Shown: in pieces, positions 21,085 through 26,345 of the stretch
Layout of the letters: each line of letters begins with the position of its first letter
Position numbering within the stretch: position 1 is the stretch's first letter
Assembly (NCBI RefSeq): GCF_000403645.1
Contig: NC_021313.1
Span: 1,054,001 to 1,118,000, forward strand
DNA: 64,000 nucleotides
DNA from: Salinarchaeum sp. Harcht-Bsk1
GTDB lineage: Archaea > Halobacteriota > Halobacteria > Halobacteriales > Salinarchaeaceae
Direction: 5' to 3'
Made by a program: the position numbers and the translations under genes
The notes under the pieces: generated by a model
Told to the model about the DNA's origin: nothing
The model's database searches: none
Seen by the model: only the letters and a program-made list of their open reading frames with translations

Positions 21085-21145
21085 ATCGGTAGTGCAGGGC
21101 CGGCGGGGATCAGTGACCGCTGACACCGCCAGTCACGAGGGCCGG

Positions 21146-22324
21146 TTACAGCCCGAACAGCGGCACGAACCGGAAGGTGAGATACGACCCAACCGTCGCG
21201 ATCGCCGGCACGATATTCTGCATCAGGACGACCCGAGCCGTCGTCGCCGGGTTGAACAGGCTCCCCGGACTGGGGATGTCCTCGACGTCCTCCTCGCCGA
21301 TCGGGGGCAACTCTTCGCCCGCTTCGTCGGCGGCCAACGCGTCGACAGTCACCGGTGGGGATTCCCCGCCCGAAACGGCTTCGGGGACGGTCACCGGTCG
21401 GGTCGCACGTCCCCAGCCGAGCCCGACGATCGACATCGTCGCGATGATGACGAAACTCGCGGGAATGCCCAGCGCCGAGAGGAAGATCACGAGCGTCGAA
21501 CTAACGGAGGCGACGACGATTGCAGCCGTCAACGGGAGTTCCGTAATGTCGCTTCCCATCGTCTCCAGGGTCCGCCTGGCGATCGTGAACGCGCCGATCG
21601 TGACGGCGATGCCCCCGACGATTATCGCCGGATTCATCGCCACTTCACCGCTGCCGACCAGCGGCGCGACGGCGTTGGCGATGTTGGACGTACCGGAGCT
21701 GAAGGCCATCAGGCAGCCGATCGCGACGACCGTCACCGTCCCGATCAGTTCGCGACGGTTCGTCGTCCGGTGGAGCTTCGGGAGCGGAACGGCGCCGGAG
21801 CGATCGACCTCGATGAGCGGGCCCGAACTTCGTTCGATTGCCACCATGCGGTTGAGTCGTGCGTAGAAGTACCGGCCGATGATCAACGATACCCAGAAGC
21901 CGATGACCGGCGAGACGATCCACCACGTGAGGATCTCGCCCATGACGGCGACGTCCAGGACGCCACCGGCCAGTGCCAGCCCTGCGATCGCCCCGACGGC
22001 AGTCATCGACGTCGAGGCCGGGACGCCGAAAAGGTTGCCCATGAGGAGCGCGACGCCGATGAAAAACAGCACCGCGATCGACGTTTCGAGCGTGAAGACC
22101 CCGGGATCGACGACGAGTTCCGAGCCGAGCTTCGTCACGACGTTCCGGCCGAGCGTCCAGGCGCCGATGAAGAAGAAGACGCCCATCAGCGCTGCAGCCG
22201 TCGTTTTCGATATCGCGTCGGCGCCGACGGCCGGCCCGAACGCCGGGCCGGTCGTCGAGCCGCCGATGTTGTACGCGACGAACATGGCGACGACGACGCC
22301 GACGACGAGGAGGATCCCGACCAT
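21146..22324 (-). CDS. Inorganic phosphate transporter (PiT family)
   Basis: A 392-residue permease for phosphate:cation symport. It shows the internal inverted duplication of PiT proteins: FVAYNIGGSTTGPAFGPAVGA at the N-terminus and MAFSSGTSNIANAVAPLVGSG in the second half, plus GNLFGVPASTSMTAVGAI. About 9-10 membrane segments are visible, with a soluble acidic insert near residue 330-360. Its ATG overlaps the stop of the upstream repeat protein (TGATG), so the two are co-expressed. PiT genes are often paired with PhoU-like or DUF47 genes; none is here. Confidence 0.9.
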   Translation of the reverse strand: MVGILLVVGVVVAMFVAYNIGGSTTGPAFGPAVGADAISKTTAAALMGVFFFIGAWTLGRNVVTKLGSELVVDPGVFTLETSIAVLFFIGVALLMGNLFGVPASTSMTAVGAIAGLALAGGVLDVAVMGEILTWWIVSPVIGFWVSLIIGRYFYARLNRMVAIERSSGPLIEVDRSGAVPLPKLHRTTNRRELIGTVTVVAIGCLMAFSSGTSNIANAVAPLVGSGEVAMNPAIIVGGIAVTIGAFTIARRTLETMGSDITELPLTAAIVVASVSSTLVIFLSALGIPASFVIIATMSIVGLGWGRATRPVTVPEAVSGGESPPVTVDALAADEAGEELPPIGEEDVEDIPSPGSLFNPATTARVVLMQNIVPAIATVGSYLTFRFVPLFGL

Positions 22325-23190
22325 CAGTCGCTCTCGTTCCCGGCAGCGTCCTCGTCGTCTTGTGCGTCGGACTCGCCCTCGTCGTCCCGCTGCTCGTCGC
22401 CAGCCTGGGACTGCAGTTCACCCTCCAACTTCTCCTCGACGGTCTCTTCGACCGTATCACTGACCGTCTCCTCGACGGTATCGTTCACCGTCTGCTCGAC
22501 GGTTTCCTCGACAGTCTCCTCCACCGTGTCGCTGACCGTCTGTTCGACCGTGTCACTGACCGTCTCGCCGACCTTCGCTTCGACCGCCTCCTCGACGGTT
22601 TCCTCGACCGTCTCCTCCACCGTATCGCTGACCGTCTGTTCGACGGTCTCTTCGACGGTTTCACTGACGGTCTCTTCCACCGTTTCGCCGACCTTCTCGT
22701 CCACCGTTTTGTCGACCGTCTCCTCGACGGTCTCGCCGACCGTATCGTCGACCGTCGGTTCGACCGACTCGCCCACTTTCGCCTCGACGGTTTCCTCGAC
22801 CGACTGACTGACCGTCTGGTCGACGGTCTCTTCGACGGTTTCACTGACGGTCTCTTCCACCGTTTCGCCGACCTTCTCGTCCACCGTTTTATCGACCGTC
22901 TCCTCGACCGTCTCCTCGACCGTCTCCTCGACGGTCTCCTTGACTGCCGTGGTCATCCAGTCCGGGTCGAACCTGGCCATCTTCCAGCCGACGTGGATCA
23001 CGTAGGAGAGCAAGACGCCGAATCCGAACGCCACTCCGACGGAGGTTCCGGCGACGAGGATCAGCCCCACCGAGATTGCGATCAGGAGACCGTATACGAG
23101 ATCGACGATCGAGTCGACGCGATTAGGGTTCACGCTGCCCACCCGTGATCGTCGCAGATACTGCTGGGACGAGCGCGGTTCGTCGTCCAC
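22324..23190 (-). CDS. Membrane protein with about 45 tandem four-residue (ETVE-type) repeats
   Basis: An unrecognised 288-residue protein. Residues about 27-72 contain two hydrophobic segments (LVYGLLIAISVGLILVAG and VAFGFGVLLSYVIHVGW). From about residue 80 to 255 the sequence is almost pure x-T-V-E tetrapeptides with Val at every fourth position (ETVEETVDKTVDEKVGETV), then an acidic tail. A 60-residue block is duplicated. A strict period of 4 fits neither a heptad coiled coil nor known beta-solenoids well. Start is GTG 23190, supported by a TATA box centred 28 bp upstream. Translation is coupled to the phosphate permease by TGATG. Confidence 0.8.
   Translation of the reverse strand: MDDEPRSSQQYLRRSRVGSVNPNRVDSIVDLVYGLLIAISVGLILVAGTSVGVAFGFGVLLSYVIHVGWKMARFDPDWMTTAVKETVEETVEETVEETVDKTVDEKVGETVEETVSETVEETVDQTVSQSVEETVEAKVGESVEPTVDDTVGETVEETVDKTVDEKVGETVEETVSETVEETVEQTVSDTVEETVEETVEEAVEAKVGETVSDTVEQTVSDTVEETVEETVEQTVNDTVEETVSDTVEETVEEKLEGELQSQAGDEQRDDEGESDAQDDEDAAGNESD
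22420..22950 (-). repeat. 12-bp coding tandem repeat with a 180-bp duplication
   Basis: The ETVE units are encoded by a degenerate 12-bp repeat. Within it 22641-22710 and 22821-22890 are identical over 70 bp, exactly 180 bp apart, and similarity continues on both sides, showing a recent 60-codon duplication. Confidence 0.9.
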
Positions 23191-23213: not shown

Positions 23214-23222
23214 ATAATTATA
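23214..23222 (-). promoter_or_regulatory. TATA box of the ETVE-repeat protein/phosphate permease pair
   Basis: TATAATTAT on the minus strand, centred 28 bp before the GTG at 23190, gives a leaderless message for the two-gene unit. Confidence 0.6.
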
Positions 23223-23573: not shown

Positions 23574-25841
23574 CTATTGGAACGTTCTGCCGGCGTCCCG
23601 TCCAGCGGGCTCGGTCGGCTCGTCCCGGTCGAACTGCTGTTCGATCTCCTCGTAGCGCTCCCGGACGTCGTCGGTCACGCTGGGGTTGACCTCTTCGAGC
23701 GCGTGCTCGAAGTGCTCTTTGCTGATCCGGACGTTGCCGACGGACTCGGCGACTTCGGACTTGTCGACGGAGTTGACGAACTCGCGGCTGGCGGCCATCG
23801 CGGCCTCGCGGGCGACGGCTTCGACGTCGGCGCCGACGTAGCCCTCGGTCTCGCGGGCCAGCCAGTTGAGGTCGACGTCGTCGGCGATGGGCTTGTTCCG
23901 CGTGTGGACCTCGAAGATCTTGCGGCGGGCCTCCTCGTCGGGCACGGGCACGTGGACGTGGCGGTCCAGGCGACCGGGCCGGAGCAGGGCGTTGTCGATG
24001 AGGTCCGGACGGTTGGTCGTCGCGATGACGACGACGTCCTCCATGGCCTCGACGCCGTCCAGTTCCGTCAGGAGCTGTGAGACGACGCGCTCGCCGACCT
24101 GAGAGTCACCGGCGGACTGTCCTCGTTCGCCGGCGATTGAGTCGATCTCGTCGAAGAACACGACGGTCGGGGCGTTCTCGCGGGCCTTGCTGAAGACCTC
24201 GCGAACGCCCTTCTCCGACTCCCCGACGAACTTGTTCAGCAGCTCCGGTCCCTTCACCGAGATGAAGTTGGACTGGGCCTCGTTGGCGACGGCCTTCGCG
24301 AGCAGGGTCTTCCCCGTCCCGGGCGGGCCGTACATCAGGACGCCCTTGGCGGCCTGCATGTCCAACTCCTCGAAGACCTCGGGGTATTCGAGTGGCCACT
24401 GGATCGTCTCGCGGAGGCGCTCCTTGGTGTCCTCGAGGCCGCCGACGTCGTTCCAGGTGATGTCGGGAACCTCGACGAAGACCTCCCGCAGTGCGGAGGG
24501 CTCGATGCCCTTCTGTGCCTCTCGGAGGTCTCGTTCGGTGACCTGCAACGAGTCGAGCACCTCGGCGTCGATCTCCTCCTCCTCGAGGTCGATCTCGGGG
24601 CGGATGCGCCGGAGGGCGTTCATCGCGGCCTCCTTCGTCAGGGACTCGAGGTCCGCGCCGACGAATCCGTGCGTGCTCTCGGCGTACTCGTCGAGGTCGA
24701 TGCCGTCGGCGAGGGGCATCCCGCGGGTGTGGACCTGCAGGATCTCGCGGCGACCCTCGCGGTCTGGCACGCCGACCTCGATCTCGCGGTCGAAGCGGCC
24801 ACCGCGCCGGAGCGCGGGGTCGATGTCGTCCACGCGGTTGGTCGCGGCGATGACGGTGACCTGGCCCCGCTCCTCGAGGCCGTCCATCAGGCTGAGGAGC
24901 TGTGCGACGACGCGGCGCTCCACGTCGCCCTGGGCCTCACCGCGCTTGGGCGCGATGGAGTCGAGTTCGTCGATGAAGACGATGGCGGGCTCGTTCTCCT
25001 CGGCCTCCTCGAAGATGTCACGCAGCTGCTCCTCGCTTTCCCCGTAGTACTTCGACATGATCTCCGGGCCGGAGATCGTCTCGAAATGGGCGTCGATTTC
25101 GCTGGCGACTGCGCGGGCCATCAGCGTCTTGCCGGTGCCCGGCGGGCCATGGAGCAACACGCCCTTCGGGGGATCGATGCCGAGCTGGCGGAACAGCTCG
25201 GGGTGGCGCATCGGCAGCTCGATCATCTCGCGGACCTGCTCGAGTTCGTCGTCGAGGCCACCGATGTCCTCGTAGGTCACGTCCGGGACGCCGTCGCCGG
25301 CATCCGCACCGGTCTCGGTGAGCTGCTCGGCGGGCGTCTCGCTGACGACGACCTCCGTGGAGTCGGTGATGACGACGGTACCGGTGGGCTGGGTCTCTGC
25401 GACCTTCACGGGGACCGCCTGGCTGGAATCCGAGAGGGGACCGAAGGAGAGCGGGAAGGGGACCGTCTGTCCCTCCGCGACGGCGCGGCCGCTCAGCTTG
25501 TCGCGCACGAGCGGGCCGATGTTGCCCCGAATGCGGAGGTTCTGGGGCAGCGCCACCGTCACGGAGTCGGCGGGCTGGACGTCCGCGGGCTCGAGGTCCA
25601 CGCGGTCGTCGACGCTAACGCCGGCCTGCTTGCGGATGCGGCCGTCGACGCGCACGACGTCCTTGCCGCGGTCCTCGGGGTAGCCGGGCCAGACGCGAGC
25701 GACGGCCTTCCCGTCGCCAGGGCCTTCCAGCAGCACGTAGTCGCCGTTCTCGAGATCGAGCTCGTCCATCGCGAGCCGGTCGATCGCGGCGAGTCCGCGT
25801 CCTGCGTCTTTCTGTTTGAGGGGTTTGACAGTCAGTCTCAT
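23574..25841 (-). CDS. cdc48: Cdc48/p97-type AAA+ ATPase
   Basis: A hexameric unfoldase that feeds proteins to the proteasome. The 755-residue protein has an N-terminal double-psi barrel/substrate domain (1-180), then two AAA modules. Each has a Walker A GPPGTGKT (about residues 235 and 510), Walker B ([29 protein letters not shown]) and arginine-finger region ([34 protein letters not shown]). It ends GRTFQ, with no clear hydrophobic HbYX-type tail. Its ATG overlaps the stop of the upstream small gene (TAATG). Confidence 0.97.
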
Positions 25842-26083
25842 TACTCGTCGGCCTCCAGTTCGATGGTTAGCACGCCGTTTTCCATAAACGCACGTGCGAC
25901 GGGCTCGGGGAGGTCGATGTCGGTCTGTTCCTCGCCGTGCATGACGATCGCAGTGTCGCCGACCACGTCCACCGACGCGTCCCCCGCGCCAGGGCCGAAG
26001 TCCGCGACGACGGTCTGACCGCCGTCTCGACGGACGGAGTGGACCGACCGATCGTCGTCGTTGATGAACTGTTGTAGCTCCAT
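25841..26083 (-). CDS. Small Hsp20-like protein upstream of cdc48 (DUF7127-like)
   Basis: An 80-residue acidic protein beginning [11 protein letters not shown], with alternating strands ([45 protein letters not shown]) resembling a minimal alpha-crystallin/p23-type fold. I recall the haloarchaeal family as DUF7127. A TTAAATAC box at 26112-26119 is centred 32 bp before this ATG and 20 bp before an in-frame ATG at 26095, which favours 26083. Coupling (1-bp overlap) suggests an accessory role for Cdc48. Confidence 0.72.
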
Positions 26084-26345
26084 TCGACTAACCATACGTA
26101 AGTGCGATAAGTATTTAAGCTTAACGCCAATGTACCCCCGGTGCGTCGGTCGATTCGCGATCTAATCTTGGTCTGGAGTGGATTTGTAGTTCACGGACTC
26201 CGATCGCCGCGAGACACCGTCGAGGCCGGAACGGAAGTCGTGACTTCGTCCGGATTCCGGACGGAGCATCCACCCGGAGTCGGCACCGTTCGGTGCCGCC
26301 GGACGAACGGCCCAGGGGATTCGACGTCGCCGTACCGAGCGAATA

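Follow-up and report, generated by a model that had tools for sequence, protein, structure and literature searches.

In E. coli, the phosphate transporter PitA is modulated by the membrane protein MgtS (PMC10710835), and PitR works with PitA, the two being paired in this way in bacteria (PMC13170248). By analogy, MgtS and PitR indicate that accessory partners of PiT transporters exist, not that the protein described here is one of them. PiT transporters require the two aspartates of their GAND signatures to carry phosphate; the corresponding residues of the sulfate permease CysP are Gly and Asn (PMC5840216). For long helical proteins, the coiled-coil periodicities accessible run from about 3.33 to 3.9 residues; a value of 4.0 has been declared out of range, and the 3.8 of YadA is the most extreme periodicity known (PMC4786415).

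The locus considered here lies in a window of 64,000 nucleotides of Salinarchaeum sp. Harcht-Bsk1 (the whole stretch of DNA analyzed; positions below are counted from its first letter), where the gene for a membrane protein with a tail of strict four-residue repeats overlaps that of a PiT-superfamily permease whose phosphate signatures are replaced.

The Period-4 Gene and Its Protein

The period-4 gene was originally predicted as an ORF at 22324–23190 on the minus strand. The ORF is present, and the long form, from a GTG at 23190, would encode 288 aa; its start is the part of the prediction that fares less well. More than 100 homologues align from the motif M/V-N-P-x-R-V-D, which makes a conserved GTG at 23133 the likelier start, so that the coding sequence is likely 22324..23133 (minus strand; 269 aa). 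A TATA-like TATAAT (23217..23222, minus strand) stands ~29 bases upstream of the GTG at 23190; it may act as a promoter, and it would possibly fit a leaderless transcript with the longer start.

The protein opens with a predicted two-helix membrane hairpin (residues 3–54; 22972..23127, minus strand) of the pattern DxxxDLxYG ... AFGxGVxxSYxxHVxWKMAR. Sequence comparison defines a conserved membrane exit, WKMARFDPDWMT, at residues 50–61 (22951..22986, minus strand), and its K51 and R54 suggest, by the positive-inside rule, that both termini and the tail are cytoplasmic. The period-4 segment follows (residues 64–232; 22438..22944, minus strand), and the chain ends in an acidic nonrepetitive stretch (residues 247–269; 22327..22395, minus strand) with 12 D/E and one K/R among its 23 residues, which bears out the acidic tail that had been proposed. 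The TGATG predicted to join this gene to the permease gene downstream is likewise there (22322..22326, minus strand), the stop occupying 22326–22324 and the permease start 22324–22322. On the opposite strand, an antisense open frame of 571 residues (21092–22807, plus strand) crosses the permease and the repeat, reading SSTVSSTVS...; it is without independent support and mirrors the repeat and the high G+C content.

An Exact Period of Four

Val occupies each fourth residue from 64 to 232 with zero exceptions (43 consecutive, numbered from the GTG at 23133), and Leu 236 and Leu 240 extend the series to 45 tetrads across 177 residues, so the roughly 45 strict four-residue repeats first proposed hold without a slip. 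The residue before Val is Thr in 35 of the 46 units, and Glu, Asp, Ser, and Gly fill most of the remaining two positions of each unit. A single sharp peak, at 4.0 (1.84), stands out in the hydrophobicity spectrum, which stays at or below 0.24 between 3.43 and 3.9. On an ideal 3.6-residue helix, the hydrophobic moment is 1.75 when taken over 8 residues at a time and drops to 0.19 over 36; the stripe therefore goes round the helix about once per 36 residues. At the DNA level, a 180-bp repeat with an overlapping 24-bp array covers 22462..22936 (2.6 copies, 82% match, 0% indels), and the tail of this protein grew by duplications that preserved a 12-base register. No other period-4 protein was found in the same genome, where the weak match beyond the locus was low-complexity or in another frame.

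A Widespread Family in Haloarchaea

A profile of the hairpin (A2), built from 21 sequences with 19 invariant columns, has 105 strong matches, spread over 99 of 145 complete Halobacteria genomes, a count that leaves out one extra match at E 9e-5. None was found outside Halobacteria among sampled genomes of the phylum, and none in a viral collection. Among named genomes, scanning yielded 80 loci, every one of them haloarchaeal, with carriers that include Halobacterium salinarum, Haloferax marinum, Natrinema, Halorubrum, and Haloarcula. Neither the short members nor the hairpin alone matched any Pfam or NCBIfam family above cut-off, the annotated copies in plasmid records are labeled hypothetical protein, and a text search of the literature with the letters of the repeat found no match. 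Proteins with this combination of membrane hairpin and period-4 tail form a previously undescribed family, widespread in haloarchaea.

Members share the conserved two-helix hairpin ending in WKMARFDPDWMT, followed by a period-4 tail of highly variable length, mostly ~54 to 288 residues. Among 108 unique members, the longest step-4 run of V/I/L spans 4 to 65 units (median 24.5), 75 of the runs start at the identical offset past the WM of FDPDWM, and 90% of successive V/I/L/M spacings in the tails equal 4, versus 10.4 ± 0.5% in shuffled tails, well in excess of what chance would produce. Unit sequences vary by lineage (ETVE, TVSKEVEE, VEKKAEEA). In 38 of the 108, though not in the window protein, the tail is closed by a heptad cap (h...h..h...h..h...h) ending D/E/N-R-R/K-P-R/K (RRPR). 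The distance from membrane exit to cap is 33, 37, 41, 45 ... 189, that is 33+4n, in 36 of these 38 proteins and for 18 of 20 distinct lengths; tails therefore lengthen or shorten by complete units. These steps are explained in part by tandem duplication in multiples of 12 bases, as in the indel-free 180-bp repeat. Members with few repeats follow the same length rule, and Val persists although its codons and the residues at other positions vary, which suggests that the four-residue register is under selection. The period-4 pattern expected of homologues is thus seen in most; 14 of the 108 have fewer than eight consecutive tetrads, and these are short, keep the same four-residue register, and terminate in a heptad segment.

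Structure and the Coiled-Coil Limit

AlphaFold2 models bear on the structure of the tail. For the window protein, hairpin helices were predicted at 3–28 and 30–54 (pLDDT about 64–80) and long helices at 57–122 and 131–242 in a weak model (mean pLDDT 63); for one short member, an equally weak model (pLDDT 60) has the hairpin followed by two helices that are separated by a break at RRP. Long helices in the tail are thus predicted for the monomer, at low confidence. With its sole spectral peak at 4.0, the window protein falls outside the canonical range of about 3.33–3.9, and because accessible periodicity stops near 3.9, a long regular coiled coil is not expected. Conceivable instead are short contacts, helices that cross, or an arrangement of a new kind.

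Several candidate relatives were set aside as composition: weak PDB matches (the best being the FD15 chain, 8ugc, and the tail of ribosomal L17) and DUF445, which scored 30.8 bits in the repeat part, under its cut-off of 33.8. The match to CdrL_M (PF24252), at 30.2 bits against a cut-off of 27 over 30 of 77 model positions, inside the repeat only, is probably of the same kind. Four short members scanned match neither DUF445 nor CdrL_M.

Gene Linkage to the Permease

In complete Halobacteria genomes, a permease of the linked clade is the immediate neighbor of 60 of the 105 family genes, where ~0.1–0.3% would be expected by chance from an estimated ~2 such permease genes per ~3,400 genes. Of the 60 pairs, 24 are divergent and 35 are co-directional with the permease second; in one the permease lies upstream, and none is convergent. 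Among the loci fetched, the pair is divergent in 27 and co-directional in 52, of which 28 have an overlap of 1 or 4 bases; the translational coupling noted in the window is thus conserved across many haloarchaeal genera. The pair survives two or more switches of arrangement along the permease tree, and arrangement is on this ground largely clade-wise and not the product of many independent events. The operon persists, with gaps of 0, −4, and −1, in deeply diverged relatives (L057, L058, and L060) whose hairpin sequence differs and whose tails are of V/A type.

A close orthologue of the permease is present in 89 of 99 genomes with the family and 7 of 46 without it (odds ratio 50, a hand tally uncorrected for kinship), and distances between hairpins track those between permeases (Mantel r 0.82), although shared descent can lie behind both this correlation and the co-occurrence. 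The linkage to PiT genes predicted for other haloarchaea therefore stands for these 60 genes and fails for 45 of the 105, which do not adjoin a linked-clade permease. Among 26 unlinked loci, no other common partner was found, and clustering of neighbors gave lineage-specific synteny only. Given these unlinked genes and the lack of a shared partner, the period-4 protein may also act alone.

Other arrangements were seen around these genes. Two genomes (G114 and G085) have two period-4/permease pairs separated by ~4 kb. One pair is co-directional and the other divergent, and in each the period-4 gene adjoins its own permease paralogue. In Natronococcus, Natronorubrum, Halovivax, and related loci (L092, L098, L103, L105, L109, L111, L114, and L117), the period-4 gene has a permease on either side: the divergent one belongs to the linked clade, and the other, ~48–51% identical, is downstream on the opposite strand. 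The gene next door in the window, a CDC48-type AAA ATPase (23574–25841, minus strand), was considered as a partner and rejected, its linkage not being conserved. A DUF7127-like small protein (25841–26095, minus strand; 26.9 bits against a cut-off of 27.6) ends at the start base of this ATPase and is possibly its translationally coupled partner.

Identity of the Permease

The linked gene (21146..22324, minus strand; 392 aa) belongs to the PiT superfamily by its PF01384 (PHO4) score of 144 bits against a cut-off of 33.7, and it matches the solved Thermotoga phosphate transporter 6l85 (E 2e-13). Alignment to 6l85 places NIGGSTT (22250..22270, minus strand) where that transporter has SIGANDV and GTSN (21683..21694, minus strand) where it has GAND; the signature of the first repeat is thus GGST and that of the second GTSN. 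In 81 linked transporter ORFs, GAND was found in none and both aspartates are missing in all, the first being mostly Thr and the second Asn. With the NCBIfam CysP model (NF053884), the window permease scores 158 bits, two further linked permeases 154 and 146, and three paralogues of the window genome 48–56; all scored permeases are below the equivalog cut-off of 400 bits, and further CysP-like permeases in other haloarchaea score as high.

The original prediction of a PiT phosphate permease thus keeps its superfamily and loses its substrate: CysP is the closest curated family, and the linked permease is probably not a phosphate transporter. Since GAND is gone and the CysP scores are below cut-off, we call the partner CysP-like and assign no specific anion, though it may be a sulfate-like one. 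All five PiT-superfamily genes of the window genome are without GAND, so none shows the textbook phosphate motif, and the missing aspartates alone do not mark out the linked clade. These five genes read GAGSS, GANSN, or GGSS/GGST in the first repeat and GGSQ, GASN, or GTSN in the second.

Discussion

We put at close to even, and if anything slightly below, the chance that the period-4 protein is an accessory membrane subunit of a CysP-like PiT-superfamily anion permease. The conserved hairpin would sit in the membrane alongside the permease and dock onto it, with the WKMARFDPDWMT patch as the point where the chain would leave the membrane for the cytoplasm. The arm extending from there, ~4 to 65 four-residue units long, would be strongly acidic and for the most part helical. 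On an ideal α-helix the Val/Thr stripe would wind round by ~40 degrees per unit, and the arm could therefore form short contacts with other arms or the permease and no long conventional coiled coil; members ending in an ordinary heptad segment could pair there. Such an arm might group permeases or gate them, in a way tolerant of length.

The same genes might instead encode a general membrane-anchored spacer or scaffold that sets the distance between components or forms a submembrane mesh, the permease neighborhood being an inherited operon and not a complex. That 45 of 105 genes are unlinked, that loci without a permease have no common neighbor, and that tails of ~54 to 288 residues suit a spacer more than a specific regulator all favor this account, which we nevertheless consider unlikely: the pair outlasts shifts in arrangement and persists in a deeply diverged lineage, and inheritance alone would not favor frequent overlap of stop and start. 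A PitR-like or PhoU-like accessory regulator of a phosphate permease, sensing phosphate flux and repressing uptake, comes near the original proposal and seems the most improbable of the alternatives. With PitR/PhoU_div (PF01865) present in no more than 29 of 145 Halobacteria genomes, there would be scope for a different accessory protein, and PitR and PitA are likewise a pair in bacteria (PMC13170248); against this, the partner is without both GAND aspartates essential for phosphate transport (PMC5840216), its score with the CysP model is well above the 48–56 bits of the three paralogues, and the period-4 protein has no PhoU_div match.

A further alternative concerns the tail, which could be a disordered acidic brush whose period is a by-product of recombining a 12-base repeat unit. 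The 180-bp and 24-bp DNA repeats, the low AlphaFold2 confidence, and the weak helix formers Val and Thr, which make up one third of tails, would fit. The brush is nonetheless distinctly unlikely, as Val is retained while codons and other positions change, short members with few repeats still step by 4 (33, 37, 41, 45), and hydrophobic spacings of 4 reach 90% despite lineage-specific units. It is also doubtful, at the other extreme, that the tail forms a regular helical assembly of true period 4 (a very tight right-handed supercoil or a mesh of crossing helices), an arm of adjustable length, stable in molar KCl, clustering or gating the permease; were it to do so, a natural structure would lie beyond the present range of coiled coils.

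Returning to the accessory subunit of a CysP-like permease, the reading we prefer, its counterparts among known systems include partners of PiT transporters. PitR has a PhoU-type domain and no membrane hairpin. Like the period-4 gene, the PitR/PhoU_div gene is coupled to a PiT-superfamily transporter and has been proposed to have an accessory role (PMC13170248); no PhoU_div match was found in the window protein or the short members scanned. MgtS is, like the period-4 protein, a small membrane protein, and it is thought to modulate a PiT transporter (PMC10710835), but it has 31 residues, no period-4 tail, and no shown sequence relation to this protein of 269 aa with two predicted membrane helices. 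As for the transporter, the linked permease shares with CysP, a PiT-superfamily member of Bacillus, the Asn at the second GAND aspartate (PMC5840216). It differs in scoring below 400 bits and in the first aspartate, which is mostly Thr, not Gly. We know of no period-4 partner of CysP. A widespread haloarchaeal permease, carrying a phosphate-transporter family name without the phosphate motif, would on this reading have an undescribed partner. The tail resembles the right-handed coiled coils (hendecads at 3.67, pentadecads at 3.75, and YadA at 3.8) (PMC4786415) in that its stripe drifts in the right-handed sense along a predicted helix, and differs from them in holding exactly 4.0 across up to 65 units. 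With length steps that are almost always 4 and heptad ends in some members, the family offers a natural series probing the limit near 3.9.
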